DNA from: Luzula sylvatica
Taxonomy: Eukaryota > Streptophyta > Magnoliopsida > Poales > Juncaceae
Direction of reading: 5' to 3'
NCBI GenBank assembly: GCA_946800325.1
Contig: OX326956.1
Location: 9,155,167 to 9,219,166, forward strand
DNA: 64,000 bases
Positions 1 to 31,740 of the stretch are shown one piece after another. A model generated the notes under the pieces. That model ran no database searches, was not told the origin of the DNA, and worked only from the letters and a program-made list of their open reading frames with translations. The translations under genes and the position numbers were made by a program. Each line of letters starts with the position of its first letter. Positions within the stretch are counted from its first letter, which is position 1.

Positions 1-760
1 TTTTAATGAATCTTTAGTTCTTGTTACTTGAATCAAATCTTTGTTAGTGTGTTTACTTGATCTCTTACTTTTAATTACTGCCTTGAACTTAGTTTAAATC
101 TCCCTTAATTCAATCTCAAATCAAACATTCAATTCAATCCTCAATTCAAAATTATAAATTCGAAATCCAGAACAAGTTCTGTTGTAACGGAATCCAAGTC
201 CGTTGTAACGGACCATTCGGTTTGTACCTGACTTTCAGTCTGTTGGTACTCTGTTGTAACGCACTTTACTTCCGTTGTAACGGACCAGCGAGGAAAAGCA
301 TTCAATATCACTCATACTAGTGCGTTGTAACGGACATAAGAGTCCGTTGTAACGGATCAACTAATCCGTTATAACGCTACTCCTATCCGTTATAACGGAC
401 TACCTCTTTCCGTTATAACGGAACTTCCTCCGTTGTAACGGACCTTCATATCAATTCCTGCGTTAACATTACCCTAATGTCCGTTGTAACGGAACCTACT
501 TCCGTTGTAACGGACTACCTTCTGTGAATTTTCTTTGTTATTTCTCATCTAGTTTCGATTTAATCTTTGACGCAATTGCTCCCCGTGGAACGAATCTATA
601 CATTTGCCTCTGTACAAACATAGATTACAAATTTTGTTGATTGTTCGGGGTTTTTACAACGACATATTAAGAACACGCCAAAATCTCTCTCATCAGGAAA
701 CATACACAATCATTCAAAGATTGTAAAGCCAATTAAAAACAAATATAAAGATACAAAAAA
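1..760. mobile_element. LTR-like sequence with palindrome array, probable LTR-retrotransposon remnant
   Basis: Between about 181 and 515 there are about 12 copies of a palindromic motif with consensus TCCGTTGTAACGGA (variant TCCGTTATAACGGA), separated by 10-40 bases of unrelated sequence. The stretch that follows (about 560-680) has the look of the R/U5 part of a plant LTR, with a 'gacgcaattgctccccgtgg' block of a kind I have seen near LTR ends. No second LTR, primer site or coding domain is inside the window, so the element is cut by the window edge or is a solo LTR. Superfamily is uncertain. Confidence 0.5.
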
Positions 761-831
761 AAATTGTTAAAATATGGCAAAAGAAGAAAAAAATTCTTAC
801 TTTTTGGAGAGTTAAGGGTAAAATAGACAAT

Positions 832-1368
832 ATGCATACGTCTCCAAATAAAAGTATTAGAGAAAGACGAACCTTAGAAGAGGATAATATCATAAATAAT
901 TTAAATCAAAAATCAATTGAAAAAGAAATAAAAAATGGTACAGGAAAGGATGAAATTCGGGATAAAGTTAAAATATCACAACAATTGATTATTTATAATA
1001 AACAACAATCACTACCTAATTTTATCAAATCACTATTGGATCCTAAAATGTCATTAAACCCTAAAATTATAGAAAAAGAACCAAATCAAATGTCTCTCTC
1101 ACTAACTGATATTGAACCAATTCCATGTTCAAATTCTTTGGATATAATTAGGGTTGAAACAATTAATAATCAAAACTATCCAATTAGTCAAGGAAATGTG
1201 GATATAAAAAATTTAGAGAAAGAGAACTTACAGTGTAATAAGGAACACACCAATCTGGCTATTGTAAAGAGTCCAATTCAAAACATCATTAAAACACCTG
1301 AAAAAAATCAAAGAAAGATAAGTGAGTATTTTTATAAAATTAATAATAATCTTAACAGTAAGTTTTAG
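832..1368 (+). CDS. AT-rich hypothetical ORF, 178 aa, origin unknown
   Basis: Open frame rich in Lys, Asn and Ile, with no recognisable domain and no CCHC knuckle, protease or polymerase motif. Coding-like sequence continues past its stop in other frames: roughly 1370-1560 in one frame and 1545-1789 in another. It therefore looks like one longer protein of about 300 residues broken by frameshifts. The composition and the close spacing to the next small frames would fit a gag-like gene of a retroelement or an old pararetrovirus copy. Nothing seen proves either, and I do not recognise it. Confidence 0.3.
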   Translation: MHTSPNKSIRERRTLEEDNIINNLNQKSIEKEIKNGTGKDEIRDKVKISQQLIIYNKQQSLPNFIKSLLDPKMSLNPKIIEKEPNQMSLSLTDIEPIPCSNSLDIIRVETINNQNYPISQGNVDIKNLEKENLQCNKEHTNLAIVKSPIQNIIKTPEKNQRKISEYFYKINNNLNSKF

Positions 1369-1544
1369 AAACAAATAATAATACCAATTCCAGTAGAGTT
1401 TCTTGTTATGATATAGTGGAAAATCCAACAAACCAAACTGCACATATAAATAATAATATAATATCAAAAAATATCATTAAAAATAAAAATAAAACAATTA
1501 AAATGGATGAACAAATAAGAAGTTCAAGACTATTAAACAAACAA

Positions 1545-1789
1545 ATCATTATCAATCTCCTATTGAAAAAGCACAACTAGTTAAATTTAAAGAAATTCAA
1601 AAAGACATATCAAAAAGACACAAATACAACAAACAAATCAATACAGAAATTAAATCATTGAATTTGGAAGGGAAAATGGAAATAATGGATAAAAATGAAA
1701 TTGCGGATATTTTAGCATTCACTGGAATTGATATTACTGATGCTCTTAAAGCCACAATAAATAATCTAGTGGAAGAACAAAGTACTTAA
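1545..1789 (+). pseudogene. Frameshifted continuation of the AT-rich hypothetical gene
   Basis: An open frame ends at the TAA at 1787-1789. Its last third reads as an ordinary helical protein (acidic and hydrophobic, ending in a Glu-Glu-Gln-Ser-Thr tail). It lies in a different frame from the 832-1368 ORF and has no start codon of its own at its 5' edge, so I read it as the 3' part of the same broken gene. No family is recognised. Confidence 0.3.
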
Positions 1790-1822
1790 GTACTTGTTCA
1801 GTTTAGTGGAAAAAATATATAA

Positions 1823-2059
1823 ATGTTATATAAAAAATTAAAAATTGTTTATAATGAAATATATAACAGCATAGTTAGAAGGAATAATCACACAATTCCT
1901 AACACATCAGAATCTAATTCAAGTTCAAGTGAAAACTTTTCAAATTCAGATGCAAATTCTTATGATTGTTTTATAAATTCAGATAATTGCTACACTAATG
2001 TTTCTAATTCTACAGAGATAACTAATGGAGAGGAGCAAGGAGAAATTTTTTATACATAA
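1823..2059 (+). CDS. Small Ser/Asn-rich hypothetical ORF, 78 aa
   Basis: It starts 33 bases after the preceding stop. The second half is almost entirely Ser, Asn, Glu and Asp, an acidic low-complexity tail. There are no membrane segments or motifs. It may be part of the same decayed unit as the upstream frames. It could equally be a chance ORF, since length alone is weak evidence here. Confidence 0.2.
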   Translation: MLYKKLKIVYNEIYNSIVRRNNHTIPNTSESNSSSSENFSNSDANSYDCFINSDNCYTNVSNSTEITNGEEQGEIFYT

Positions 2060-2077
2060 GGGATATGGTGGTTTAAT

Positions 2078-2600
2078 TTGGATATGAATGAAGAAGAGAG
2101 ATCTAGAGATAGAATTGATCGAATTAATCAAATAAGACAAAGTGAACATACCATGAAAAGTGCAGTTGCAAATCTGGAGAAGCTAATTGGTACTGCTATG
2201 GCAGAATCTTCAAACGGTCGTAATCCTCTCAGTGAAGCGGTCCAGGACTCAGAAGATTTAGAAGAGATGATATTGTTGGAAGGTAGTGAGCCAATATTGG
2301 AGGAATTGGGTTTCGTGATTGAACCCTAGAGCAACTGGTGAAAGACGATGTTGGAAGTGCTATTGTTGGGAGTGCTGATACTGATAGATCTCCTCTATAT
2401 CGCGGAAACTATGGTCGTACAGTAGGGTTTGGATAGAAGAGGACATGGCGTGAGAAAGAGGATATCGAAGATGGCGTCCATGGTTCAGGAGAGGGAGAGG
2501 ATAGAGGAAAGAATCGATGGAAAAGGGGGAAGGGTCGAAGAGAGAGCTGGCGGAGGAAACATTCAATGGAAAAGGGGGAAGGGGCGAAGAGAGAGCTGAT
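2078..2600 (+). other. Coding-like segment with an 83-aa frame and a purine-rich direct repeat
   Basis: The 2078-2329 frame encodes an acidic, charged 83-residue protein (Arg/Asp/Glu-rich N-terminus, then a Leu/Glu-rich segment) that I cannot place. Its base composition is higher in GC than the frames before it. From about 2440 the plus strand is purine-rich. It contains a 35-base block beginning 'gatggaaaagggggaaggg' at about 2515 that recurs about 50 bases later, followed in both copies by 'cgaagagagagctg'. This may be a captured exon fragment. Confidence 0.25.
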
Positions 2601-2913: not shown

Positions 2914-5900
2914 CTATGCAGATACGCTATTAGGGATTCCTTTTCCGGTCAGGCCTATCTGTCTTCCATTGTTAGAAGTGTCTGGATACATCAACATGTA
3001 TGGTACCTTGTCAAATAACAAAAATTAATTAGTAATCAATTATGAAGGTATTAATTTAAATAAACTTAAAAAGGTAAAATAGTAATGGAAAAAATTGGGT
3101 AATTTTGAGAAAATATTTTTCTATTATACCTTAGCAGGACCGGATCGGTTCTTCAGCTTTGTGTCCTTGTTTCTCTCTTTTATCTTCTTCTCCAGTCTCT
3201 TCAGATCATCTGAAAACTCGTGGAACAGTCGAAGAATCTCGCCATTGTCGGTCCATCCTTCTGAAGCGCGCTGGCCGAGATACACTTCATCAGACAGGTG
3301 ACGCGATAATACCTATTATTGTGATATCACGTGGAGTTCAGGATCTAGGGTTTTGGGTTTAGGGTTTAAATATATAAACTAGATATTACCTCTATCAACG
3401 CAATCCCCAAAGTGGTTGTGAACCGGTCAGGTATCATTTCAAGGTAAAACTTCTCAGGGTCCTTTGCGAGCTCTGAAAATTCTGGTGTATTTTCGAAAGG
3501 AATGAATTCACGGCACCGAGTTGGCCTGTTCGGTGGATATCCCGCATAAGCAAACTGTCCGAAATTTACGGATGCGTGTAGTGCCGATGCGATCCATATC
3601 AGCGTGGTTAGGGTTTGGATCAAGTTCTCAATGGTGTTTAGCTCAAGCCAGCAATTTGGGTCACCAAGTTTGTCACCATGACCAACGTGACGTATTTCAT
3701 CGTACCTGACACAAGAAAGAAATGATTATTGTTAGCATTATCTATTATTGTTATTATCAGCCTCAAACAATACCAGGATTGTAGTTCCAAATCCGAGATC
3801 ACTGCCTGACCATCATAATAAAAGCTGGTGCAATAATTGTGGACCCATTTTTGGATTGCGATCCATACATCGAGTCCATCATTAGCATACGGATAATCTT
3901 CTAGAAGGACTGATACTCCTGAGGGTTGTTTTGGATCTCTGATAGCAAACCCCCTGAAATATGGGAAATACTTCTAGAGTTACTATATTCAAAATGTTCC
4001 TCGAAAATTTAGATCCATTACCTCTTAATAAGGTCCTCAGGAAGTGCTTGTTCGGTAAATCGCCAATCCGCATAGATCTTAGAGGATAATTCCATCGCGT
4101 ACTTGCCAGGAAACATGGTCCTCTCAAGTACTCCTCCAGCATTTAAGAGGATACTTCTTGCAAGGGCATTTATATGCAAAGTATCCTTTAAATGTGGATC
4201 TAATAGTTTGTATATCGGATGCATTGTACTCAATTGCCTCCTCGTCGCTATCACGAATGGCTCCACGGTCGCGTGAGTGTATAACCTAATATATCAGATA
4301 AAAAAGGGATAATTTCTGGTACAACGTTCTAAGAATCTTTCAAATAAACAAAAAATTATTAGATTTATCATCTTAAATTTTAGTTTCTATTATGTTCGTC
4401 CGACCATATATATTTAACTTTTGAGAAATTTTACTCAGAACTCAAATTTCAACAGAACACCCTTGATATCATAATTAACACGCTTAATTAACATAGCAAC
4501 TAACACGTGTCACATAATTAATAAACATGTGATATAAAATTAACATTATTAATTCAGATGAATGTTACTTTTGTGATACATGAAAATTAATTACATATTC
4601 CTTATTAATCACCATGTTAATTAAGTGTGTTCATTAGGATATAGAGGTGTTGTGTGAAATATGGGGGCACAGTATATGCCCTCTTTAACTATTATGTAGA
4701 AAATTATGTCTCTTGTTAATTATCATGTTAATTAATTGTGTTAATTAGGATACAGAGGTTTTTTTAAAATACAGGGAATAGTATATGAACGTATAAATTT
4801 TATATGATACTTTAGTATTTTAAACATTAAAGTTGAAATCTTAAATGAAAACTACTTTCTATGGACTAAAAATTATATGAAAGAAGTTTCTTCGTACCAG
4901 TGACTAATAAGTTGATGATAGCCAGAGTCATTGACAGCAACGAAAGTTTTTGCCAATTGCCAGAGTTCTGGACTTTCCGGTACGAAAACGCGACTTGTAT
5001 CTTTTCCATGATCCTCGGATAGGCTAAGTTCGATAACGAGTGGCTTTAGAGTTGCGTCGTTTTTTAGAAAAAGCAAGGTCCTTGATGCGTAAACGCACAC
5101 CCCTTTCTGCGAGTTTATTTGGTTTAGGTATGGCATTAAGTAGTCATGGTGGTCTAGGATGAATATTCTCTTCTGACTCATGGCCTGCCAAAAAAAATGT
5201 TACAAAATTGTGAAGTATTATTATTTGTGTTGATTGTACATAATTGTTACATAGTATGTAAAGGATTAATCAAATTAAATAATGACCGATTCGACGGAAA
5301 GGCCCTCGAGCTTGTCTTTTATGTGATGGGAAGCAATAGAGCTTTTCTGGCCTCCTAATCCCATGGGTGGAAAAATCTAGTTGAAAAATATAAATATTAG
5401 CAATATTATACCAAAAAATCGAACAAAGGTCGTAACCAATAGCCCCCAATTAAAAATGAAATTGAGTAGAGGTACGTACTTCATTTGATTTCTTAATTAT
5501 TTTTTCTTTTTTTGAAATGGACAACATGACTTGTTATGCAAAATATTTCTTACCTCTAGGCGTTTGATAACCGCGGGATTAAGTCCGGCGAGCATTTCTC
5601 GCGCGAATTCTTCATCAGTTCTCCATGCATTTTCATTAGCTGCATAGATAATTTTACCAACAACAGTTTTTAGTAATATACTGATGAGGCCATTTACCCT
5701 TCCCCATATTTCACCACCACATTCTCTATATTCTAATTAACATCTTTAATTTACGTCCACTTAAATTAACAATTTCTAATTATTATTATTATTAAGAAGT
5801 TATTAATTTTGTAGTGTGGTGGTGAAATCTGGGGGGGGAGTAAAATTTTCCCATGCTCATAGACATGAGCTTGTATTGGTGACGATACCAATTGACGTAC

Positions 5901-7383
5901 CGGCAATTACTTGTGGGATGGGGAACTTGGCTGGTTTCCCTTTCATCTTCTTTGTGACGTCCTTGTATACCTCGTCCGGTATGAGAGTCTTCAATTTCTC
6001 CATTGCTAGAGTCTCGAAGCCTGCCATTTTCGGGGTCTCAGAATACAGGTCCCTTTTCAATTGCTCGAATGACCTGATTAAGTTAGTACCACCTTGGACA
6101 TTAGAATTTTAATGTTGTTACACGAATATTATAATTTTTATTTCGAGTGAAATTCCTTTTTTGCATGAGCTCCAATTAATTTCCAGTGTAACACTAATGT
6201 GAGAAGGGAAAAGGGGCGGGGGGGGGGGGGGGGGGGGGGGGGGGACCTAAAATTGTTGATGGCTCCTTCAGAAACGGATTTTACTTCAGGTACGAGAAAA
6301 TGTATCAAGGCCTGAATCGCGCCCGTAATGAACTCCGAAAACTTCTCCTGGCTGAACCTATCGTCTGGTGGTACGTAGGCGTCAAGGTTTAAGAACTTGC
6401 CACGTGTCTCGGTCACACCGTCTAAACCAATCAGCAAAATAATTGTTTTTATTATTATTAAATATATTTTTTTTAAAAGCTGATTCCAAAGTTTAGCTTG
6501 GAAACCGTCCAGATATATAAATATAAATTTGATAATAATTATTATCACAAAAGTGTTATTTACCAGTCTTGCTAAGAGGGCGTCCAGTACGGCACCGACG
6601 AGGATAAGGATACGAGTTGGTGCCACCTAGCACGGGCCTAATGTGATCTTCTCCTTTCTCTTCCTCTGGGGATCCAAGATCATTGTAGTAATCATAGTCA
6701 TAAATACGCTCCCAATGATTTCGTTCTCCTTTTCCATTTCCTCTTAAGAATGCAAGTTCCTCTTTCCGGAGCTCCTTCAATAGTTCCGGTGTCCTGCTCG
6801 GTACATAACTCTAAGAAAAATTTCCAACATTAAGCATATATATTCACCATTCTAATAAAAGTTTTTATAAAATGAAATATTCACCGTGTTAGAGAAGAAC
6901 ACACGATCGAGATGCGCAGTCCTAAAAGGGTAAATCCACGAATTGCAATCGAAATGGATTTTCCGATCCTCCGAAACCGCAAGGGAAACAAACTTGAGAA
7001 AAAACTCGTTTCTGTTTCCGTTTTTCACCACGATTGCTCCTGGTGCTCCGAAATCGTCGTCGAGATGAAATGTGAAGCGGTATGTGAAAGTTTTTATTTT
7101 CCCATTCTTAGTTTTCTTTTTACCTTTAAGACTTGCCTCGCTACTCAACTTTGCTTTTTTTGTTTCTATAATATATGACACTGTTATTTAAGTATTTATG
7201 TAACACATACTATATATGATTATGTACAGAAAAATGAAAACACATACTCGAATCAAGTTGAGTACTGCTGTACAGACGAACGGTTGTTCTTTGTCCTGGA
7301 GGTGATTTCACAATTGGCCGGAGAATCACAACCGTCCCTTTGACGACATGAGAAGAACTATTGAATGGGTGACATAAATTCAT
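2914..7383 (-). CDS. Linoleate 9S-lipoxygenase-like gene, 13 exons, 836 aa, intact
   Basis: It encodes a lipoxygenase, which adds O2 to linoleic/linolenic acid. Exons (5' to 3' on minus): 7383-7248, 7165-6885, 6810-6564, 6421-6247, 6073-5901, 5639-5554, 5376-5287, 5184-4898, 4285-4022, 3953-3774, 3705-3390, 3312-3130, 3006-2914. All introns are GT-AG and the joined frame is open. A PLAT domain covers about residues 10-145, then the catalytic domain. Iron ligands are visible: H491 and H496 (HWLYTH), H683 and N687 (LHASVN). The C-terminal residue is Ala836, not the near-invariant Ile. A534 (NALAR) predicts S stereochemistry. T548-M549 align with soybean LOX-1 T556/F557, nearer the Thr-Val of 9-LOX. 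The N-terminus is short with no plastid transit peptide, so it is probably cytosolic. The start is the first in-frame ATG (7383); the next upstream context is not coding. Thirteen exons are more than the roughly nine usual for plant LOX genes. Confidence 0.93.
4286..4897. repeat. MITE-like insert in lipoxygenase intron 8
   Basis: This 612-bp intron contains alternating 'ttaattaa'-rich stretches. A block near 4660-4685 (gggggcacagtatatgccct) recurs as a close match near 9545-9565 outside the gene. The left part has 'aacacccttgat' and a related 'gatatagaggtgtt' appears in opposite sense, suggesting degenerate inverted termini. Exact ends are not resolvable by eye. Confidence 0.4.
5693..5844. 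repeat. Small TIR element (MITE) in lipoxygenase intron 5
   Basis: The left end 'tttacccttccccatatttc' (5693 on) and the reverse complement of the right end (ttttactccccccccagatt) match over about 30 bases, including a shared 'atttcaccaccaca' core. About 90 bases of AT-rich sequence lie between. The size and terminal inverted repeats fit a MITE. I could not define a target-site duplication with confidence. Confidence 0.55.
6218..6244 (+). repeat. 27-base poly-G tract abutting a lipoxygenase splice donor
   Basis: A run of 27 G on the plus strand is poly-C in the transcript. It begins right after the GT of the intron-4 donor, so the donor reads AG|GTCCCC rather than GTAAGT-like. It could form G-quadruplex DNA on the plus strand, and its length may be unreliable in the assembly. 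Confidence 0.8.
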
Positions 7384-8044
7384 TTCTTGTTAAGGATTGA
7401 AAGACCTCTAATTTGCAATTCGGAAATGGAGAGGTGCTTTAATAAGGGTGGTTAAAGAGAATTATACTTTGGGTTAAGTGTAAGATGAGAGGGGCATAAT
7501 TTTTTTTTCTCAGAGAAGGAATGGAATGTGCTTGTCTTTTGCTTACACTTGCATCTGATTCTTGTTGTACTTTCAGGCTGGAAAACAAGAGTGAAAAATA
7601 GTGTCATTATATATGTGGCTCTAGATGTTTGTTTTCACGTATTATCATGCTTAATAAAATATTTCTTTTCAATGTTAGTGTATATTGTTTCAATGTGCTT
7701 GTCAGTTTTAATACGTCTTAGTCTTAGTATTAATATATTAATTAATATTAATTTTAGGCGGAATTTAGCATATACCACTACAAATCATGAAATATCATTT
7801 ATACCCTCCAAAATGTAAAGTATCATGAATACCCATGCAAAAAAAAGAAAAGAAATATCATCTATACTCTTCATCTCTTAATTATTAAACAAATGTCTCG
7901 TTTATTTTAAAATGAAACAATGATAGTTTGGGGGCAACTTTCAAGCAAATACAATATTGGTACACATGATATTTATTATGTTTTGTAAGGATATAACTGA
8001 AATTCTTCTTATGTATAAAGTAAGAAGAATTGGAAGAAATCTGT
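7384..8044. other. Lipoxygenase upstream region
   Basis: AT-rich flank upstream of the minus-strand lipoxygenase ATG. It should hold its promoter. A 'tatataatg' stretch in minus sense about 220 bases upstream of the ATG could be a TATA box, but nothing distinguishes it from background. No ORF of interest was seen. Confidence 0.3.
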
Positions 8045-8870
8045 GCTTCCACGTCACCAGGGGCCTCTTTGTAAAAAAAAAAATTAATTTATATTTTTGT
8101 CCTTTTTTATTTATATTTTGGTCCTTTCAAGTTTAAAAACTTACATTTTGGTCCAGGGGCCTCTTTTTAAAAAAAATTTAATTTACATTTTGGTCCTTTT
8201 TAGTTGAAAAAATTATATTTTGGTCCTTTTAAGTTTAAAAACTTACATTTTGGTCCTTTATATTTACATCTTGATCATCTTTTATTTACATGTCGGTCCT
8301 TTTTTACATTTTTGAATTTACATTATAGTCCTTTTTATTTATATCTTGGTCCTTTTCAGTTTTAGTTCACACTTTGGTACTTTTTATTAACATTTTGGTC
8401 TTTTTTTATTTAAATTTCGGTCTTGTTTTACATTCCTCCACGCCACCAGGGGCCTTTGTGTAAAAAAAATATTTTTAATTTACATTTTAGTCCTTTTTAT
8501 ATATATTATATCTTATATATAAGTTAAACAAAATTCTTGCAATTATAAGCCTCCACGTCATCAAGAATTTTTGTGTAAAAAAATATTTTTTATTTACATT
8601 TTGATATTTTTAATTTATATTTTGGTCCTTTTAGTTTTAATTTACATTTTAGTCTTTTTATTTACATTTTGGTCCTTCTTTATTTATATTTCGGTCCTTT
8701 TTTTACATTTATTAATTTATATTTTGGTCCTTTTTATATACATTTTGGTCCTTTTTAGTTTTAATTTACATTTAGTCCTTTTTTATTTACATTTTGGTCC
8801 TTTTTATTTACATTTCGGTCCTTTTTTACGTTTTGGTCCTTTTTTACATTTGGTCTTTTTTCCTATTTTA
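8045..8870. repeat. Degenerate tandem array built on TTTACATTTTGGTCCTTTT
   Basis: Dozens of imperfect 17-19-base units with the core 'acattttggtcctttt' fill this stretch. Three longer blocks beginning 'ccacgtcaccaggggcc' (about 8048, 8437, and a decayed one at 8553) break the array into higher-order units. The open frame across it is a low-complexity artefact (Ile/Leu/Phe-rich). It lies within the DNA just upstream of a Helitron 3' end and may be part of that element. Confidence 0.85.
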
Positions 8871-9117
8871 CATACATATTAAAATTTGCGAACATGTGCT
8901 GATTATATTAATCGATTTTAGAAGCACCTGAACAAATGCTATTTATATAAATTATATTAGGAAATAATATTCGTGATAGACTTATTTCACGAACCTTATG
9001 TATATATTGACATCATGATATTTGCAAATATGTCATGATTAAATTAATTTAGTTCAAACACATGTGCGTTAATTCGTGCACGCGTTAATTCTATTTAAAT
9101 AATTATATAAAAAACAT

Positions 9118-12170: not shown

Positions 12171-12249
12171 TCTCTGTAATTGGTAAGTTTTTCGTGTTCT
12201 TCTCTTATTTTATTTAATTTCCTTTCATTAATGTCGACCCTCAAAGCAA

Positions 12250-19055: not shown

Positions 19056-19070
19056 GTCTCCCACTCAATT
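19056..19070 (-). other. Polypurine tract
   Basis: Immediately upstream of the 3' LTR in element sense: 'aattgagtgggagac' then TGAAGG. The position and purine bias fit the plus-strand priming site. Confidence 0.75.
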
Positions 19071-20299
19071 TCAGATATACCTAAAAGGTACTCATGCATA
19101 TCCAATACGCACGATTTTAGAGAATATAGCTCGCGTATCAAATACCAAGCTATGCACATCCAATGTGCCAATTTTATGATCAAGCCCGACTTAGTACGAC
19201 TCGTTGTGTGACCATGTAGGTTCGACTTAACGATGGCAGTAGGTTGTTTCCAATACCTACAAGCTCATGAGCGGGATCTAGTCACTCCATCATAGCTACC
19301 CATGTTAAACGAATAATGATTGTGATCATTGTGCCTATCTCGAATAGCGGTTACTAGTTCTCTTGTTTGCGATATCCGTTAATCAAAAGGCATGGTAATA
19401 GTCATCCTTATAATTTGATTAACTACACTTATTCCCCGATTCCGAGTTGAGTTAACAAATTTCAATCGATATTAACCATTAATATCATTGACTGTGGCCA
19501 CAGTTTTCGTTAATCGACTCATCGAGCAGCGCCTAAGAGATATCTCTTCCTTCCGGAATAAACAATTCATATCTTGGAGACTCACATTGAATTTCGTGTT
19601 TCGGACAATACCCAATGATGACCCTTTTAACTCCCTGTTACGGTGAGCGTAAGATCATATCAAAGCATTGTGTTACGCACGTAACTCAATCAATGATCCC
19701 CTCAAGTTTGAAGAACCTAAAACCCCATCCGTCGCAAGTCCATCTAGAATGACTAAACCATGTCATGGTCTCGCGGCTTCGGTCATATCCAATACATGTA
19801 ACCTAACATATATCTACGTTCCCGATTCGACAAGCACCTTGTCCCATGATTAGCAAAACATAATCATCTCCTCGGCAAACGTACTAGTGTACACGTTCAG
19901 TCTATTATCTAATAATAGAAATGCTTCTCTCTTAAGCAAGCTGATCCGCGACTAGGGATGTTTAGAAATGACACTTTAAGTGTGACGGTTTTGCTGCACA
20001 TGGTCCTCAACCATGTCGACGTCCACACAAGTTCAAATCAAGGTTCATGTAACAATCATATTACACAACCCGCACACAGTTTTCATATAAGGTGAATGCA
20101 TATTAATTTAAGTAAACAAAAATTTTAAAAGGGATGCATTCATATGGACTAAGTATTTGGGTGATACAACATTTACCTATGGATATCTCCATACCCATAA
20201 CCTGCGAGGACTATCGTATTAGATAACTACACTCTACTCTCTTCTTCCTCCTCTAGGTATCTCCGTACCCATAGTCATCGCATGACAGTCACGCGCGAC

Positions 20300-22900
20300 T
20301 AGAGAGAGCGGTTTTGTAAACGGGTCCGCACGTTCCCGCTAGTGTTAATCATCATCAGGATTGGAACATTTCCAATACCTACGATCACATCTTTTCACAA
20401 AATTTCATGGATCAAATGAAATTTTCTGAGTATTGGCTAGAAGTGGTTGTGACCTCGGCATTTTTGGCTTGTACTATTGCGTCTCACGCAATAAACAACC
20501 ATAAATCCGATAACTCGTGACTACTAGAGTTTGGTCATGTATCCTTGAGCCATACCACTTCCTTTTGCGATTAATAACCGCAATATACTCACCACCGTAA
20601 ATAGAATCATAAACTATTGGTCTTGTGGAATCTTTCCACATAATCGTGTTTTCATTTAAGCAAAACATGTACACACTTTGTGATCGAAAGTCGTGCTACA
20701 TATTTGGACGTGCTTAATCTTTGGAAACTGTTGTTGTTATAACTCTTTATAACCAACACGTCCTCCACACCATTATAGATAAAAAAAATCCTGAATTCTT
20801 TTGTAAAGTATTCAACGATAACATTCACCGCTATCAATACAAATCCCGATGAATTTAAATATACATAACCATTATGTATATATATATGTATAACCATTAT
20901 ACATTCACAAGAGTTAGTCTCATGTAATCGCATTACATTCAAACTCGTGTGATTCCTTGGATTTTATTGACGGTGAATTAGACGCTTCATCTATACGACA
21001 TATAGCCACATTCATATCATGACAGATATAATAGATCCTTCACATTGAATGTAAAGCATCATATTTTTATTTTCGCCCTGCTTGATGTCTCACATCGAGC
21101 CGTAGAAAATTTCTGCCATTCGACATCTCTATTTAACCCCGCCAAGGAGTTATATGTTGAAAACCTTTTTCAACAATATGTCGATATACGTGCTATAATA
21201 TAGAACGAGGAACTTCTTAGATCTATCCTATAGATCTTCACGCTTAATTCATAAGCGGTCTCGCCTAAATTTTGTGTCGTTACAAGAAATATAACGCGGC
21301 TCCCACTAACCTTCGTATGTACACAAAGTTTCCATTCGTTCCGACAATGTTATAGCAGTTTATAACTTCATCAAAGCGAATACTCCAATTGCGAGAAGCT
21401 TTCTCTAATCTATCATATGGATTGTTAAAGCGTGTATATCTTATCCCCGATTCTTAAGAATCGACAAAACCGTAAGGTTGTGTCAAGTACACATCCTTTC
21501 ATAAAATTTCTGTCAAGAAATTCGGTTTTGACATCCATTTTGCTACATCACATAGTCATAATACGCGACCATGTCAAGCAGAATTTCGAGAATGTGAAAG
21601 CATGGCAACATGCGAAAACGTTTCTTCATAGTCCGACTATGAAATTCTTGAAACTCTTCGCTACGAGCCTCGCTTTGCATATATGCGTATTCCTATCCGT
21701 GTCGGTTCTCATCTTGAAAACCCATTGTCTTTTCACGGGTCTAACCCGGAAAGTAATGAAATCAAGTTCTAAACTTGATAATTTTACACGGATCGAATCT
21801 CAGAATTCATGACATCATGTCATGTGGAATCAACCTTTCATACCATCCCTGTAGGATATCGAATCATCATATGATTTCGATCTATCATCATTAGCCATGG
21901 TAAATCCGTATTTACCGGCTTATGATATAGCCTACTTGATCTACAAATAATTTCTTTGTGTGTTCGACTCGTATTCATCAACTCTTGATGAAGTCGTGTC
22001 AACATTCATCGGTACAATGTTCATTTTCAGATCTCGAACTCTTTCGAGATTTATTCTACTCCCACTAGCCCGCATAGAGATTAGCAACATCAAGTTTCAA
22101 ACTTGTGCGCATCGAGTCCTCCTCCAAGAAGGCATCTCTTCGAGCCACGAAAATCTTATTTTCGTCGGAACGTTAGAACTAATACCCTTTAGTTTCCTTA
22201 AGGATAAACGAACAATTTCCAGATTTGGGATTGAGTTTAACCGAAACAAATTTCGAAATACACTCACATCCTCAAATCTGTACAAGTGACAACTTCGAAA
22301 CCATTCCGATCCATATCTCATATGACGTCTTTTGTACCGATTAGAAGGATTATGGTTCATATCTCATACGCAACCATTCATTAGTGCCGCTGTCTCAAGG
22401 GCGTATCCCCAAAACATTTTTAGGAGATCCTATTGATTTATCATTTATCGAACCATGTCCAACATGCGTTTATTTCCTCTTTTCGGACACGTCTCAATGG
22501 TCCGAATAAAAGCCATCGTGAAACGATTCCACAATCATAAATGATCATCAATATTCATAACTCAAATATCGCCTCTTCGATCCTATCGAAAAGTTTAGCT
22601 CAAATACTCGCCTTATCGATCCTATCGAAAAGCATTGATTTTCTTGCTTAGTTGATTTCGTATTTCGTTTTTGAAACTCTTTGAACCTTTCAAAAGTCTC
22701 CGTTTCGGCACGCATTAAATAGATATTTCCATATCTACTTTAACCGTCCATAAACATAACAAAATATTGATAGCCTCCTCTTGCCTCGAAACTTATCGGA
22801 TCATCTACATGTGAATGTAAGTTCCAATAATTCGTTGGATCTTTCTCCAACCTTTGGAGAATGATGCCCTTTGTCGTCTTGCCTAATAAATAAGTATCGC
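20300..22900 (-). pseudogene. Remnant of Copia pol (integrase, reverse transcriptase, RNase H)
   Basis: Recognisable islands on the minus strand are, in order: integrase core 'ARGGYQYFVMF' and 'ETFERFKEFQK' (about 22,690-22,790); 'FWGYALETAA' (about 22,385-22,420); reverse-transcriptase 'KASRNWSIRFDEVI' (about 21,360-21,405); RNase H 'VEDVLVIKSY' (about 20,740-20,770) and 'STRPIVYDSIYGGEYIAV' (about 20,575-20,630); and the terminal 'ADPFTKPL' (about 20,305-20,330). The RT active-site YVDD was not found. Stops and frameshifts separate all of them, so no polyprotein can be made. Confidence 0.85.
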
Positions 22901-24449
22901 ATTAATCAATCGAATCTAATTCGAATGATTCTAGCAATCCATCATATGGAATCTAGATACACGAATCTCGTTTATATGGCCAAGACGGCAATGCCAAAAG
23001 AATCAATCAACTTCTAGGTTTAATCCTCCTCGGATTTCACCATTCTTTGAGTCACTAGTTTGGACAACTCCTTGTCCTAACTCTCCGTTTTGGAAAACAT
23101 TTTTCCAAAATACCCTTAGACATACATTTCTTTCGATCCTGCTTTTGAATTACAAGGACATTCAAAGCATCTTTGGATTCCCCGGACACTCCAAGCATCT
23201 CCTATTCAAATTTACATCGCATCATATGCAATTTCGGGATCGACTTATCTATCGAATGCATATGATATTCGGTCACGAAGATCAAATCTCGTACCATCAA
23301 CACACGAGTGTTAATCCAAGACCCATAAGGCGTCTCAAAATTAACCTACTCTTTGAGCCGCATGGAATCATTCAACGCGCTCTAACTCTTGAAACTATTT
23401 CATGAGCGTTGTGTTTTATTTTCATATACACCCGAATTCTCAAAACAATTGTGAGAAAAATGCGTCTACACATGCCACCACAAGGCATGTAATATTTTTC
23501 GATTCTTTCTTAAAGTGTATCAAACACGGCTTTCTCTAAAGCCAAAGCCTCGAGCCTCAAATCTACCGTTTCCGTGTCCAACACGTTTCTTTAAGTCTAA
23601 GAACTATTCTTTGACTATCAAGGTTAATTACGGTAATTCCGACCCAAAAGCCATCTATCATATCGATCTCATCGATATTTTTGGTGTTTGCTTGAAAACA
23701 TAATTCTAAACGGATGATGAAGATTAAGCTCCTAACCGTGCGTACTTAATCTATATGCTTATATGATACTTATATGATAGTGTTATTTTATCGAATCGAT
23801 AACCCTCCTACCGATACGGGACTCCAAGTCCATAACACTCAAGATCCATATTTCCGTTCCTCCCACAAGTGACTTTAGCCTATCGGGTGGGATCCCGTTA
23901 TTTAGGTAGGATTATATCCAATCGCATCCAATGCGACTCTTGAACCTTTATAGGATTTCGGTGATGGATTGTATCCTATACAATCCCAGTTCCGTGTGTG
24001 CATCCTATCTATGCCCCGAACTCCAATCTGATTGGCCTGGACGGTTAAGTCACAACCATCTCCAACGTATCGTTCAAATAAGCTACTAATGAGTCGACTT
24101 TAGCATGTGCCTCACAAGTCCCGATTTAACGCTTGCCACCCTTTCGATGGTTACAATATCACGTGCCCGACTTTAGCCTGAACCCACGTGAAACGTAACA
24201 CCAAACTCGGTGGTTGTGGACATGGAAGGCATTTCCATGACTAAAATATTATGAGGGATCATGCCATTGCATGTTTCTAAATCCGTGACATAATCAAATT
24301 ATATCACTATCACAAGATTTTTCAATATGCATATGATTTTATTTGGGAGTCTAATTATTCTAAATAATTATCTAATTATATGCTAGTATGTTTGATGCCG
24401 ATCAAAGCGATATAAAAAACTCAAAATTCCGAGCTTCGTAGCCAAAGTT

Positions 24450-25143
24450 ATCGCGAAAACAAAAACAGCATCCAGAAGGGGATCCGTTATAACGGACTGC
24501 CCCATCCGTTGTAACGCAGGGGCCCAACGGGCGCGAGAAAACCTCGCCCGGGACGCGTCCGGGGCGCCAAAAACTGCCCCCGGGGCGGCAGAAAACTGTT
24601 TTTCTGCACCCTTTCGGTATTTCATTAGAACGACACTAATACTTCGCTTAAATGAAATATATTACAACATGAAAATTCTAGATAATCTCATTATCTAACT
24701 AACACAATTTGAACCATTCAAATCGGAATTTCCTACTGAAAGTTATACCAGTTTTAGTAAAATACGAACAAATGAAAATGTAAGTATATCCAATACACAC
24801 CTTTTCAACCAGAAAACTACAGACACCTTTTCTGTATTCTGTTGAAACAAAAATATTAAATTATTCCAACCGACTTTGAACGTGAACGAAAGTTCTAGAT
24901 AATCTTATTATCTAACTAACCCAATTGGATTGGACTCAATTGGGGTCTCGATGCGACATATACGGACGTTTAAGTCTCTGTATGTCAAACAGTCGCACCC
25001 TTTCAGTATTCCATAAAAACGACACTGATAATTCGTTCAAATGAAAAAACTTTCTGTATCAAAGTCATAGATAATCTCATTATATATCTATTCCAATTTT
25101 ATCCAATCAATTTGGAGTTTTCCACTGAAAATTATCTTAGTTT
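24450..25143 (-). repeat. Copia leader with palindromes and duplicated ~390-bp module
   Basis: A module beginning 'caccctttcggtatttcat' and running through 'agataatctcattatctaac' occurs at about 24,607 and 24,995. A third copy lies inside each LTR (about 18,840 in the left). A GC-rich patch at 24,478-24,590 carries TCCGTTATAACGGA and a TCCGTTGTAACGC variant, the same palindrome class as at 0.2-0.5 kb. Confidence 0.7.
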
Positions 25144-25413
25144 TACTCACTGTTTCGTATTCTAATTTTCTGCAGATTTTGCCGTTTCGTCCGTTTTCGC
25201 TCGTTTCCAAAACGATAAATCATGAAACTTTTTCATGATCATTCCTAGATACTCTCAATCAACTTTTGATCGATCTCTAGCCAATTCCACTTGTGATTTT
25301 AACGGAATTTGATTTTCTCTATATGTAACATCATGCAAACGGGTACGAACTTTGATAATCCGTGCGTATATCGAATATACGACTATGATTCGACCCTCGA
25401 ATCGATGGCGATC

Positions 25414-25425
25414 GCTCTGATACCA
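25414..25425 (-). promoter_or_regulatory. Primer-binding site, complementary to initiator tRNA-Met
   Basis: In element sense TGGTATCAGAGC follows the 5' LTR after one spacer base. This is the standard plant Copia primer site for tRNA-iMet. It fixes the element's orientation as minus. Confidence 0.93.
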
Positions 25426-25426
25426 C

Positions 25427-26439
25427 TGTTGGGGAATATCCCCGACCCCGGACCCGCGCAGCGGATATGAAGGCCCGGTCCGGTTCCCTAAATCCAAGAT
25501 CACGCCATGACTTCGAGGGTACGATGCAAATAGAAGGACATATTCATACCGGTGCCAAATTGATGGCACACAAAGGGTTGATCGCCGCCTTCTATTCCTC
25601 CTGTCACGTTGGTGACAATCCGCGCGTCCCATACCACGCGTCCTTCACCACTCGTTAACTACGCCAGTTCACTCGACTTCGTCTTCGTGCGTCCAAGCGT
25701 TTCCACCGTCTTTCTCACTCGAGTCGATCACAATTCAAGAACCACAAATGTCGTTCCTCTACTTGTATCCACGTTGATTCGTAAGACGTCGGTCACGGAT
25801 GCACCTGCCTAGACGATGCACCGGCGAACTTGCTCGATCTAATCGATTCTCTATTTCTCTCTCTTCGCACCTTTTCACTCACGAAAGATCAAATCTGAAT
25901 TTGCTCTTTTTCTTGTGTATTGGGCAGAATGATAATCTCAATTGTCTAATCTGGATGAGAGAGAAAGTATCCTATTTATATCTAATAGGATTAGGATTAG
26001 CCAAAAGGCATGTATATCCAATATACATCCTTTCACACAGAAAAGTGCATAAACCTGTTCAGTATTCTGTCCAGACGAAATTGATAAATTTCTCTGACAG
26101 AAAATCACCCAACATGAAAGTTGTAGATAATCTCATTATATACACAACCCAATTTGGCCCAGCCCAATTGGAATTCGTATGCAAAAGTTATGACTGTTTT
26201 ATTAACTGTATGTCATACTGTTGCACCCTTTCGGTATTTCACATAAACGACACTGATACTTCGTTCATATGAAATATATTTCTACATGAAGGTTATAGAT
26301 AATCTAATTATCTATCTAACCTAATTTGAACCATTCAAATCGGATTTTCCCACTGACAGTTATGGCCACGAATGTACGACTACATTCGTTTATCCTTGTG
26401 TACACTTTTACGGTTGATCCTGAAACTGTATTTCCTTCA
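25427..26439 (-). repeat. 5' LTR of the Copia element, 1,013 bp
   Basis: Same termini as the 3' LTR and about 97% identical by eye. It contains the same spurious frames (25609-25812, 25799-26272) as the other LTR. Confidence 0.95.
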
Positions 26440-26444
26440 CTAAT

Positions 26445-27671: not shown

Positions 27672-28298
27672 TGTTGTTTAATTAAGACCGACGTAGAGGA
27701 TGGTGAATAAGTAATCTTAAGGTCCAATTTTCGGTAATGATATACAATTTTGATTTAGTGTGGAAGCGTAAAATAAATTAGAAATAGAAAGAACGATATC
27801 AAAACCAATAACACAAGATATTTGTTTATGGAATTCGGTAGGTGATTGTTTTGTAGTTTTAACTCACCGGCTACTTGCTCAATCGACCGATTCGATTGAA
27901 TACAAGTACCTACATTTTCGGAGATGCCTTGTGTCTTTTCGGCTTTCGATTGAATTCCCGTATCAACTCTTACAAAGTTTTGCCTATATCGATTTACACG
28001 TTTCTATCGATCTATGACGGGTTTTACAATTCTTGTACTAGCGTATTACAATTTATCTAATATGAACTAGAACGTTATCAATCACGCAAGTTGGGAATCG
28101 TATTTGATTGGATTCGAAAGTGGATCTAATAAACCCTAAGTTTGTTTGGAATGATGAGCTTAAGATTTGGATTAGGTTTTCTCTCTTTTAGTTTGCTTTT
28201 AAAAGTGTGGAAGAGTTAGAGAAAGAAACCAAGGAGGGATCATATTTATAGAACAGATAGTCCCCTCATAATTCTTTGTTTTTCTGTACAGTCCGTCC

Positions 28299-29386
28299 TG
28301 AAGGAAATACAGTTTTGGATCAACGGTAAAAGTGTATGTATAAGGATATATGAACATAAGTATTCATGGGTTTAAGTAAATGCATAATAAGATTGTGCAA
28401 AGTTAAGTTCCAGAAAGGGTTCATTCGAACGAACCGTAGGGTCCGTTCGAACGGACTGCTTCGAGTGTAAAATGGTTTTATACTCAATTCATTCCAAAGA
28501 GCCTGCGTTCGAACGAACTGGAGTTCGTTCGAACGAATTATAGAGTTCGTTCGAACGGACTATACGGAATGGAATCTGGAATTAACACAGAAATGAGACA
28601 GAAGGTGGTTCGTTCGAACGAACCATCAGGTGCGTTCGAACAAACCATAAGGGTGCGTTCGAACGAACCTCTTCGAGTATAAAATGGTTTTATACATACT
28701 CATGACTGAAAGCAGTTCGTTCGAACGAACCTTATGGTGCGTTCGAACGAACTGATGCTGGAAGTGTGTATTGGATATATACAACCTTTAACCCAATCAT
28801 TATTCTATTTTAGTACAAATAGGATGTTTCTCTCTCCTCTGTTAAGACAATTCAGAAGTTGAACAAGAAGTCTCATTCAATCCAGAAATTAGAGAGACTC
28901 TTATCAAGTTGTTGAAAGAGTGCGACTAAAGAGAGAAAGAAAAAAGAGGAGAAAAGGAGTTTTCTCCGTATAGAGAATCAAACGTGATCAAGCAAGTTCT
29001 CCCGTGCATCGTCTAGCCAGGTGCATCCGCGACCGAGGTGTTACGACTCACGGTGGATACGGGTAGAGGAGCGACACTTGTGGCTCTTCGTTGTGATCAA
29101 ATCGGAGATGTAAACGAGTAAAAGGATGTGGAAGCGTGTGGACGTGGGACGCACGAACGGTGGGAGAGATGTGTGGTATGGGACGCACGGCTAGTCACCA
29201 ACGTGACACCGGAGTAAAGCAAGGAAGAAAGTGATCAACCCTTCGAGCGTGATCAATTTCACGCGGTAACGATCTATCCTTCTATTGCATCGTGCCCTCG
29301 AAGTCATGGCGAGATCTCGGGACAAGGGAACCGGACCGGGCCCTCAATTCCGCTGCGCGGGGCTCGGGGTCCTCGGATTCCCAAAA
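28299..29386 (+). mobile_element. Solo LTR 1, 1,088 bp, TSD CGTCC
   Basis: It begins TGAAGGAAATACAG, like the Copia LTR, and ends ...CGGATTCCCAAAA (canonical CA mutated to AA). It is flanked by CGTCC at 28294-28298 and 29387-29391. The U3 part (28420-28760) carries about 10 palindromes of the form GTTCGTTCGAACGAAC. The U5 end shares 'ccgctgcgcgggg' with the full-length element. The insertion splits the left fold-back arm, whose sequence resumes at once on the far side. Confidence 0.9.
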
Positions 29387-29391
29387 CGTCC

Positions 29392-29765
29392 GTCATGATG
29401 CAAGGAATGGTCCATCATGACGGACTGCAAGTCAGACTAGCCGTTAGAACAAAGATATTCAAAATCTGGCACTACCGTCACGACGGAGGAATGGTCCGTC
29501 ATGACGAACGTGCCTTGCACTGAGGGTTCGTCGTAACCCTTGAATGGTTCGTGTCGACGAACTATCCCCTGGAACTTTTCTTGCCACTTCCGTTGTGACG
29601 CTAGATTTGTGCGTCACAACGGACTGCCTGTATTGGGAAATAATTGCTATATGTCCGTCATGACGCTTGGAGTGTACGTCAAGACGGACTGAGCGAGAAA
29701 CCTAAAGTATATGTGACATGTATATGCGTCATGACGGTCGTGTGGTCCGTCATGACACACCCGAA
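29392..29765 (+). repeat. Palindrome array CCGTCATGACGG, left fold-back arm
   Basis: About 12 irregularly spaced copies of GTCCGTCATGACGGAC-like motifs, including GTTCGTGTCGACGAAC and CCGTTGTGACGC variants, in the U3-like part of the left arm. Confidence 0.9.
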
Positions 29766-30120
29766 CTCAAGGCACATATTCTTTTTTTCTTTCCTTGTTT
29801 TGAATATATTTCTATTTTTTTGAACTTAATCATTTCAATGACAAGTTTAAGAATACCTATTAGGTTATTTAGGAGATTGTGTGATATCCCAATTTGTGAA
29901 ATCTTCGATGTCTTGATTCTTTTGTTGGTTCAAATTTTTTAGGATTTGATTATCTCAAAATAATGTCGATATTACTAATCAAATTGCGTAAGTGTCATTT
30001 GTAAAGATAAGAGACGTAGCCCACAAAAGGATCAAAAGAACAAGCAAACACAAGAACATCAAGAATATAAGGAAGTCAAGAACGTGAAGAAATGATAGCA
30101 CGGAAATGCATGATCAAGTG

Positions 30121-31030
30121 TGAATGAAATACAGTTACAGATCAAGTAGTAGATTGTACATATGAGGGTAGATGAACGTGCGCGTTCGTCGGAACGATTT
30201 GATGAGTAATAAGATTATGCAAATCTGACAGAAATTACATAGTCCGTCATGACGCACCATATGGTCTGTCATGACGCACACTAGTGTATTTCTGTGTAGA
30301 CCAATCTATGAGTATACCGTCATGACACACCATCCAGTGCGTCATGACGCACAATCTTGTCCGTCATGACGGAGCACAATTATAACGGCTAGATCTAGTA
30401 CTCGTGACTAAAACTGTGATCCAAATTCTGGATTAGCAGTTTTGATACTCCTTAATGCCCCTTAATGGAAGCTTTGATTATAAGATATGAGCAACTCCTC
30501 TCTCTCTAAAAAAAAAGAGTGTGGCAATTCCATATCTAAAAGTGAGAAACTTGTTGGACAAGTTGAGAGGAAAACTCCATTAGAGATTCAAGGTTTTAAG
30601 CAAGTTTGCTGAAATTTTAGGGGAATTTGCCGCAACCGAAAGACGCGAGCTCGAGGTGGATACGAGTAGAGAAATCTCGCTTGAGATTTTCTGTGGTGAT
30701 CAAGGTCGAGCAAGGTCGGAGACAAACCGGATAAATTCCGGTTGTATAAGACAAATCGGAGCTTCGAATTAGGTGTCGAATCGCGCGGACGTGGCACGTG
30801 CATGTCGCCGGAATCGAAGCAAGGACAACAACAACTACACGAGAATCAACCCGTCTCCGTGATCAATTTCACGTGGTATGATTCTCTATGAATTAAGAGT
30901 TAATTTCATAGGTTTTAGTTGCATTACATGATTCGTACTTTCGAGTCGTTGACGTGGTCCTCGGGATCAGGTCGGACCGGGCCTCTCAATCCGCTGCGCG
31001 GGGCTCGGTAGTGACGCCGGTATCCCAACA
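30121..31030 (+). mobile_element. Solo LTR 2, 910 bp, TSD AAGTG
   Basis: It begins TGAATGAAATACAG and ends CGGTATCCCAACA. It is flanked by AAGTG at 30116-30120 and 31031-31035. Its U3 (30240-30370) carries five palindromes, but of the CCGTCATGACGG type rather than the TCGA type of solo LTR 1. It lies in or beside the central loop of the fold-back element. Confidence 0.9.
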
Positions 31031-31189
31031 AAGTGAAGATGTCAAAACGTTGAAGACTTCCGCAAGTTGGGATATCACCATCATCAAAATAACCATAGGT
31101 ATCCCTAGACTCGTCTTTGAATTATAACTCAAGATTAAAAAATGAATATTTGAAAACATTAAAAAAAAACTAAGTGTGAAAAATGTGTA

Positions 31190-31740
31190 CAGTCCGTCAC
31201 ACTGGATCATAAGTCCATCATGACAGACATACACGTATAAAACAAGAATTATGGCACTCAATACAGTCCGTCATGACGATTAACCAATCCGTCATGACGG
31301 AGCAACAATGTCCGTCATGACTGACATTCAAACGTCATGACGAACTATACAAATAATTCTTGAGCAGATTTACAATAAGGATCCGTCATGACGGACTAAC
31401 ATAGCGTCATGACGGACCTCAACTCAAAACTGAGAATGAACACACAGTCCGTCACAACGGATCAACCAGTCCGTTGTGACTGACCTATGGATTCCATCCC
31501 GACGAATATTCCATAGTCATGACAGCCTATACAAAGTCTGTAATAACCAAACTTACAGTGAAGGTCCGTTGTGACGAACCATACTTGCGTCATGACGGAC
31601 CCCCTGTATAGTGAACGTCTGTCACGACGGAGAAAATGTCCGTCACGACGAAAATATTGATTTTCAAATAACTTAGTTCTAACGGCTAGTTTGACTTGCA
31701 GTCAGTCGTGACGGACTATAAGTCAGTCATGACGGACTGT
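31190..31740 (+). repeat. Palindrome array CCGTCATGACGG, right fold-back arm
   Basis: About 18 copies in inverted relation to the left-arm array, followed on the plus strand by 'tgttctataaatataac' (31,772-31,788), a good TATA box, and a CT-rich leader. The order palindromes, TATA, leader is that of an LTR U3-R. Confidence 0.9.

Follow-up and report, generated by a model that had tools for sequence, protein, structure and literature searches.

We analysed a 64,000-nt stretch of the Luzula sylvatica genome (hereafter the window; contig OX326956.1, 9,155,167–9,219,166 on the forward strand, coordinates below being positions in it), in which a short palindrome, CGT-N4-ACG, recurs in arrays within the long terminal repeats (LTRs) of three retrotransposon lineages, here called alpha, beta and gamma. 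An original prediction had described such arrays from the letters alone, and they are real: 41 exact copies lie in the 1,944 bp of arrays (six places), compared with 5 in the remaining 62,056 bp of the window, and dinucleotide shuffles of each array gave means of 0.02–0.32 and maxima of 1–2. Under a relaxed criterion of at least 5 of the 6 core bases, the scan requiring a pyrimidine (Y) or purine (R) on at least one side, the window holds 59 sites: 12 at 180–512, 2 at 24485–24516, 10 in solo LTR 1, 13 in the left arm of an inverted structure, 6 in solo LTR 2 and 16 in the right arm, for which about 18 had been proposed. Three of these sites (29442, 30187 and 31675) were judged weak. The elements and arrays are as follows.

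1–695, plus strand: part of a gamma LTR; 2–695 is 79% identical to L045:596–1296, which is followed by the primer-binding site (PBS) TGGCGCCGCTGCCGGGGA and a gag open reading frame (ORF; PF03732); the 5' part of the LTR lies upstream of the window
180–512: array of 12 dyads, centres TGTA/TATA, in the gamma LTR; all 12 in the same place in L045
18044–26439, minus strand: full-length Copia element, alpha; target-site duplication (TSD) CTAAT; PBS 25414–25425; polypurine tract (PPT) AGTGGGAG; LTRs 18044–19055 and 25427–26439, 97% identical
24485–24516: dyad pair (TATA, TGTA), 22 bp apart, in the leader of the full-length alpha element 18044–26439
26125–26313, minus strand: two AGATAAT-N3-ATTATCT palindromes in the 5' LTR of the full-length alpha element; same places in its 3' LTR
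27672–29921, minus strand: left beta LTR, 5' end truncated, interrupted by solo LTR 1; inverted match to 31042–32349, 76% in the outer arm
28299–29386, plus strand: solo LTR 1, alpha TCGA subfamily, within the left beta LTR; TSD CGTCC; ends and U5 as in the LTR of the full-length Copia element; 83% to L016:4367–5422
28422–28749: array of 10 dyads, centre TCGA, in solo LTR 1
29391–29757: array of 12–13 dyads, centres mostly CATG/CACG/CACA, in the left beta LTR
29923–32349, plus strand: right beta LTR, TGTTGGTTC...AAACAACA, interrupted by solo LTR 2; start common to L009, L016 and L018; end adjoins PBS TTGGTATCAGAGC in the relative L016
30121–31030, plus strand: solo LTR 2, alpha CATG subfamily, within the right beta LTR; TSD AAGTG; 77% to the L013 LTRs
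30187–30371: array of 6 dyads, centre CATG, the first (CGGA) weak, in solo LTR 2
31269–31734: array of 16 dyads (relaxed criterion), centres CATG/CACG/CACA, in the right beta LTR
31778–31786, plus strand: TATA box TATAAATAT, about 45 bp past the last dyad of the right beta LTR

Three lineages of carrier elements

On its PBS and PPT we assign alpha to Ty1/copia. Its LTR runs from TGAAGGAAATACAG to CCCAACA, with TG..CA ends, and the tRNA-Met PBS TGGTATCAGAGC begins one base past it (junction CA/G + TGGTATCAGAGC in the window element, L011, L013 and L015); the PPT AGTGGGAG stands at the terminus in the window element and L013, and the 5-bp TSDs are CTAAT, CGTCC, AAGTG and TGTTG. Alpha shows neither the Sirevirus-type LTR/PBS junction (CA/ATTGG + TATCAGAGC) nor multiple PPTs AGGGGGAG, and the ten short frames of the window element gave no Pfam family above the cut-off. 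The CATG subfamily comprises window 30121–31030 and copies in L008, L010, L011, L012, L013, L017 and L044, and the TCGA subfamily window 28299–29386 and two copies in L016. A TATA-like sequence lies about 65–110 bp past the last dyad, L1 having in addition a TATATA at 26 bp. Arrays also stand in alpha leaders, after the PBS (L013, L011). The element at L013:1699–9294 has 963-bp LTRs that are 100% identical, a TSD of TGTTG, 8 dyads per LTR and 16 in its leader; it is apparently a recently moved, non-autonomous, non-coding retrotransposon and, because it contains no internal ORF longer than 130 amino acids, was presumably moved by another element's proteins.

The alpha subfamily of the full-length window element, with copies in L012, L013 and L014, is array-less and holds AGATAAT-N3-ATTATCT at LTR positions 127 and 299 in 5/5 LTRs with at most 1 mismatch; the L012 LTR alone of the five holds a single CGT-N4-ACG. 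The LTR copies of this second palindrome are 172 bp apart, and leader-like stretches in the window and L020 contain three more each. Separately, L008:1–3842 is repeated at 5160–9001, 3,842 bp without a mismatch at an offset of 5,159 bp, with one TCGA and one CATG array inside; this is either a very recent tandem copy or a very long LTR.

Beta is classed by its sequence features as a second Ty1/copia lineage. A fold-back transposon was rejected: what had been described as its arms are two beta LTRs in opposite orientation, into each of which a solo LTR of a different Copia family (solo LTRs 1 and 2) has been inserted. The beta LTR, TGTTGGTTC...AAACAACA, is followed by ATTGGTATCAGAGC; no TSD was seen at the two window copies. 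A gag domain (PF14223) was found in L016, with none above threshold in L020, and the gag homology search returned 8 relatives, all PF14223. The Sirevirus-type junction (CA/ATTGG + TATCAGAGC) occurs in beta elements L016 and L020, and in this feature beta resembles Sireviruses. Beta centres are CATG/CGTG (window, L009, L016), TCGA (L010, L011, L012, L020) or TACA/TATA/TGTA (L018, and L050 via a 136-bp match). An (ATATT)n tract at 32350–32605 begins where the right beta LTR ends.

Gamma is placed in Ty3/gypsy on its PBS TGGCGCCGCTGCCGGGGA, its gag (PF03732, Retrotrans_gag) and its integrase (PF00665, rve) in L045/L046; by its PBS it would fall in the Athila/Tat clade. The LTRs of the gamma element are identical at 1,208/1,209 bases read (99.9%), with 12 dyads per LTR, and the array sits past a TATAAAT, near the LTR 3' end. 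A second array, of 13 dyads, lies between the gamma integrase and the 3' LTR (L046:1043–1444), a position comparable with that of the Sirevirus motifs upstream of env. The U3-like position proposed earlier is probably wrong for the array then placed at 181–520, which sits close to the 3' terminus of the gamma LTR; in alpha and beta the arrays lie upstream of a TATA box.

Symmetry, spacing and conservation of the dyads

The repeated unit retains the CGT-N4-ACG core and extends beyond it, to a symmetric dyad of 14–16 bp, GT[C/G/T]CGTY-NN-RACG[G/C/A]AC, whose columns −3 to +12 hold 0.5–2.4 bits over the 59 sites. T stands at −2 in 54/59 and A at +11 in 51/59; a pyrimidine follows CGT in 58/59 and a purine precedes ACG in 59/59. 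The gap is fixed: CGT-Nk-ACG gave 215 matches at k=4 and 9–66 at twelve other values of k within 0–12; before this count and those of symmetry, duplicate sequence was removed (one of the two identical L013 LTRs and the duplicated half of L008). The outer base at −1 is alike in both halves in 76 of 132 dyads where 64.8 are expected (2 of 1,000 within-array shuffles), which is consistent with a homodimer and also with a hairpin. A scan for repeated 5-bp inverted half-sites of any sequence in 600-bp windows recovered these arrays and otherwise just 36.0 kb and 37.05–37.5 kb. At L017:1440–2411, and at 31704 and 31725 of the window, some dyads have together acquired CAGT as their left half (GTCAGTCATGACGGAC), like a new dialect in the course of spreading through one array.

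Spacing had been called irregular, at 10–40 bases; it is not. Neighbour distances in the window are 20–23 bp in 33 of 53 cases, the rest being 29–34, 41–45, 50–51, 58, 62–63 and 72 bp, and the longer ones are helically phased. For the long spacings of the window the phase statistic R at 10.5 bp is 0.70 without the three weak sites and 0.48 with them, with a best period of 10.1–10.15 bp; the phase null gives p values of 0.00015 (three weak sites omitted), 0.0009 (collapsed) and 0.008 (all). Outside the window, 72 long spacings, drawn from among the matches listed for the genome patterns in the first 3 Mb of contig 1 with similar arrays collapsed, give R=0.56 at a best period of 10.7 bp (6–16 bp scan) and 0.545 at 10.5 bp, a value reached by 0/5,000 random sets. 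Gaps of 52–53, 72–73 and 92–96 bp are frequent and are not multiples of the 21–22 bp unit, so duplication of that unit alone is insufficient for the phase; gaps of 84–85 bp, equal to four units of 21, are frequent too.

The dyads diverge less than the spacers between them in five of five families, significantly in four. For the Copia families we used a third-copy test, in which dyads are defined in one copy and mismatch is scored between two others, with 99 rotated masks as control; L012 of beta-TCGA (its array equals that of L011 outside the masked dyads) and L008 of alpha-CATG were left out. Mismatch in dyads, spacers and the rest of the LTR was 0.129, 0.242 and 0.177 in alpha-CATG (7 copies; 0/99 rotated masks as low), 0.017, 0.093 and 0.056 in beta-TCGA (3 copies; 1/99), and 0.276, 0.429 and 0.240 in beta-CATG (4 copies; 0/99). 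This test supersedes earlier ones that were conditioned on dyads, in which the left and right arms were identical at 120/158 positions where both have dyads and at 206/339 outside, and shifted masks were as low in 23/713 cases for alpha-CATG and 245/701 for alpha-TCGA.

The gamma comparison is a single pair, window versus L045; of four further stretches, L048 and L049 are near-copies of L045, and L050 and L051 belong to other families. In this pair the dyads mismatch at 13/168 positions (7.7%) and the spacers at 74/170 (43.5%; Fisher p 1e-14 for dyads versus spacers), the rest of the LTR at 56/352 (15.9%) and the six core bases at 2/72. All 12 dyads are in place with spacing within 1 bp (21,51,21,50,22,22,21,23,20,51,21 in the window and 21,52,22,50,22,22,21,23,20,52,21 in L045). 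Spacers diverge more than the rest of the LTR in all five families, which fits a pressure to change; alternatively, it could simply reflect stronger constraint on the remainder of the LTR.

Centres had been proposed to be specific to each element; instead, CATG and TCGA are each present in both Copia lineages. Among 17 dyad-masked array stretches compared on the plus strand, matches at E<0.05 occurred only within the same lineage and centre, plus one weak match between beta-CATG and beta-TACA (E 0.003), and the masked spacers gave no match between alpha-TCGA and beta-TCGA nor between alpha-CATG and beta-CATG. It follows that two lineages came by the same centre through convergence, or else so long ago that the spacers no longer reveal it; recent transfer of whole arrays between lineages is unsupported, the masked spacers being without a cross-lineage match.

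Across the assembly (445 Mb, six contigs of 60–77 Mb) the exact dyads number in the tens of thousands. CGTCATGACG occurs 12,679 times (61 for its reversed control), CGTTCGAACG 21,454 times (454), and CGTTGTAACG 15,415 times plus 15,657 on the other strand (299 plus 242); the three centres sum to 65,205 exact sites, compared with 1,056 in reversed controls. In 26 stretches picked irrespective of the motif (100 kb) we counted 20 CGT-N4-ACG and 11 of the reversed control, the 20 being confined to three stretches: L018 with 7 (beta LTR), L020 with 7 (beta LTR), 3 (tandem repeat) and 2 elsewhere, and L030 with 1 beside gamma-like sequence. A CpG island is a weak candidate cause of the arrays, since their observed/expected ratios are 1.24–1.85 and that of the window is already 1.13. 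The latter figure means no CpG depletion, which is unusual for a repeat-rich plant region. CpG loss in dyads relative to elsewhere is lower in alpha-CATG (12/79 versus 65/339) and higher in alpha-TCGA (10/48 versus 9/100), and we base no claim on it.

Beyond this genome, three IMG/VR contigs of 60–70% GC (L001:4762–4815, L002:693–725 and L003:5762–5815), probably phage-derived, hold two or three CGTCATGACG dyads 22–23 bp apart. We judge these, perhaps phage operators or iterons, to be an independent, convergent case of the same dyad and spacing.

A proposed dimeric factor and its alternatives

We consider it likely, on sequence evidence, that the dyads are helically phased sites at which a dimeric DNA-binding factor binds cooperatively and activates the elements or relieves their silencing. 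A symmetric protein dimer would bind the dyad at the DNA level, each half-site T-N-CGT-Y being read together with its partner across the fixed 4-bp centre. Dimers would stack on one face of the helix (20–23 bp apart, or at other multiples of about 10.5 bp), probably cooperatively, and the bound array would serve as an enhancer or protect the promoter from silencing. A cooperative dimer on one DNA face is suggested because the 4-bp gap is fixed, the unit has two-fold symmetry with an outer base that is degenerate in each half, each array holds mostly one class of centre, and the spacing is helically phased. Since the dyad is common to distinct lineages, two of which also share centres although their spacers are unrelated, the factor would most likely come from the host, with several retrotransposons making use of it. 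The location of the arrays upstream of TATA in alpha and beta suggests transcriptional control; those in leaders, near the gamma LTR 3' end and after the integrase suggest an effect beyond the promoter, perhaps an anti-silencing role of the VANC type. The proposal of dimeric factor sites under selection, made in the original prediction, is supported by the symmetry, the phasing and the lower divergence of dyads than of spacers.

Several observations weigh against this account. The spacings of related arrays are not fully independent, even when collapsed, and the 21–22 bp unit itself accounts for part of the phase. In alpha-TCGA (dyads 0.189, spacers 0.228, rest of the LTR 0.104; 3 copies) the lower mismatch of dyads than of spacers is not significant, with 27/99 rotated masks as low, and in both this family and beta-CATG the dyads diverge more than the rest of the LTR (0.189 versus 0.104; 0.276 versus 0.240). 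An aligner that matches paralogous dyads could have flattered them in the four Copia families; the gamma pair is less exposed to this because its 12/12 dyads line up with their flanks. No symmetry excess beyond array composition is present at −3, at the Y position or at the inner centre (554, 140 and 716 of 1,000 shuffles). The gamma array probably lies past the start site, a position not expected under a plain upstream-enhancer model. Finally, one alpha subfamily is without such LTR arrays, and the LTRs of its full-length window element hold no CGT-N4-ACG.

A more far-reaching version of the dimer account is tentative, and we lean against it as a whole. It holds that one cis-regulatory code, helically phased dimer sites with a small set of interchangeable centres (CATG, TCGA, TGTA/TATA), has been reached by convergence in three lineages of LTR retrotransposons from two superfamilies, and that its reader is a plant DNA-binding system not yet described, which may be host-made or element-encoded; the spacers would be driven to change fast, as if escaping small-RNA recognition, and the sites would stay fixed, an arms race within one promoter.

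The best-placed of the alternatives, though unlikely, is that some mobile element encodes a VANC-like anti-silencing protein that recognises the dyads by their sequence, and that these LTR elements parasitise it. VANC targets are likewise short motifs repeated in non-coding parts of VANDAL elements; they diverge between related families, and they are common to one non-VANDAL element (PMC5735166). The arrays here, too, occupy several non-coding places besides the promoter. The VANC motifs YAGTATTAY and AGTTGT[AC]C are unlike the dyad, however, and belong to another element class with a known anti-silencing protein, whose account does not use the word palindrome (PMC5735166). The element parts read contain no candidate gene (L013 has no internal ORF longer than 130 amino acids), and no genome-wide VANC-like search was made.

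Next comes a role in RNA, which we think improbable: neighbouring dyads would pair into long stems in the transcript, and the arrays would be kept, or persist, as hairpins feeding host small RNAs. Seven of seven folded 150-nt pieces are far better than shuffles (z −4.0 to −10.0), arrays occur in leaders as well, the −1 symmetry given above suits a stem, and clusters of palindromes in the regulatory part of maize Sirevirus LTRs have been tied to secondary structure and are hot spots of small RNAs (Bousios et al. 2016, as cited in PMC10760457 and PMC5311732). Yet the outer stem pair is broken in 56/132 dyads, and the centre, which would be a free loop in a single-dyad hairpin, is nonetheless mostly of one class per array. 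The 10.5-bp phase has no evident role in RNA pairing, and an element would be expected to select against being a small-RNA source. Production of small RNAs from transcribed arrays would likely be a side effect whatever function was selected.

That the arrays are ordinary 21–22 bp satellites, slipping and homogenising without function, is very improbable. Gain of a 22-bp unit is visible in L010 relative to other copies, solo LTR 1 contains a larger internal duplication, the 84–85 bp gaps are frequent, and the non-palindromic centre TGTA keeps one orientation in the window array (7/7) and mostly does so in L048, L049 and L051. The idea is already contradicted by spacers that are unrelated or fast-changing while the dyads stay, by the 52–53, 72–73 and 92–96 bp gaps, by the same dyad in three distinct lineages, and by the gamma pair with its 12/12 dyads in place. 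Thus neither of the outcomes that the original prediction named as refuting it, dyads no more conserved than spacers and an ordinary tandem satellite, is what we found.

Least tenable are NAC dimer sites, suggested earlier by the inverted CGT/ACG half-sites, which do recall NAC core motifs: published bipartite NAC sites have a CGT-ACG gap of 7–8 (ATAF1, ORS1, JUB1) and CGTR in ATAF1 and ORS1 (PMC4844398), whereas the gap here is 4 and CGT is followed by a pyrimidine in 58/59. The count of CGT-N7-ACG, 32, is within the range of the other gaps. Among other families we presume that bZIP TGACG half-sites would fit the CATG centre only, in an order that bZIP dimers do not use, and that MYB-type AACGG cores would fit T..A centres only.

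If a dimeric factor reads it, the 16-bp dyad would make a clean bait, given its tens of thousands of copies and its defined centres and phase, and identifying the reader would reveal how several retrotransposon lineages are activated, or evade silencing, at the same time. With dyads kept and spacers changing fast, selection for binding and for silencing evasion would be measurable within the same few hundred bases.

Known LTR motifs and further features of the window

Box I of Tnt1 consists of symmetric repeated motifs in a Copia LTR that act as cis-activators, in few copies and with a sequence other than that of the dyad here. Box I and other LTR repeats are named in the account of the closest known system, the palindromic motifs (RMs) of Sireviruses (PMC2829016). 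In 13 elements these motifs occur in 8–32 copies, with a CGG-CCG core in 12/13, in positions upstream of both the TATA box and env; they were suspected to be transcription factor sites, and a factor common to them was not found (Bousios et al. 2010; PMC2829016). Their existence tempers an earlier statement that no such series had been described, since element-specific palindromes upstream of the TATA box were known (PMC2829016).

Both are high-copy dyad palindromes of plant LTRs, with sequence that varies by element around a shared core; the RMs cluster shortly upstream of TATA (PMC2829016), as the present dyads do in two of their lineages. The cluster lies about 65–110 bp upstream in alpha and about 45 bp upstream in beta, and the gamma array lies past the TATAAAT near the LTR end. 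The Sirevirus copy number of at least 8 per element is reached by four window arrays (12, 10, 12–13 and 16) and by L013 (8 per LTR and 16 in the leader); solo LTR 2 has only 6. The core differs, CGT-ACG here and CGG-CCG there (PMC2829016). So do the carriers: the RMs were described as Sirevirus-specific and absent from classic Copia (PMC2829016), whereas ours are a classic-type Copia (alpha), a lineage with the Sirevirus junction (beta) and Ty3/gypsy. By junction, alpha and gamma (PBS TGGCGCCGCTGCCGGGGA) are not Sireviruses, and beta has the Sirevirus-type junction. Divergent flanks are mentioned in the Sirevirus account, and helical phase and cross-lineage centres are not mentioned in the parts of it consulted (PMC2829016). 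The maize Sirevirus palindrome CACCGGACNNNGTCCGGTG also differs from the present dyad and was explained via small RNAs; the palindrome-rich region has been called highly variable and rapidly evolving (PMC5311732).

Palindromic LTR cis-elements of the Sirevirus kind are thus known. In the literature consulted we did not meet the CGT-ACG core, its Gypsy and classic-type Copia carriers, the helical phase, the cross-lineage centres, or kept dyads with fast spacers. A CGT-N4-ACG series in LTRs was not met in the literature searched, which was mostly without subscription papers, and among the matches listed for the exact dyad string none concerned LTRs by title and start of abstract. A tandem 35-bp repeat at 37522–37675 of the window (4.4 copies) has a unit containing CACGGTTCAGACCGTG, a CGG-CCG palindrome of the Sirevirus kind.

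The window also contains a lipoxygenase fragment on the minus strand at 6138–6626 (PF00305, E 7e-6) and a direct duplication (39120–39613 with 42029–42535, and 40500–41231 with 42826–43958) that includes a zf-RVT fragment at 40624–40962 (PF13966, E 4e-6). A 57-bp repeat at 45614–45790 (3.1 copies), its unit a multiple of three, lies within open frames on both strands at 45.3–46.2 kb. Elsewhere, L015:1–2640 and L018:5860–10000 are satellite arrays with a periodicity of about 180 bp.

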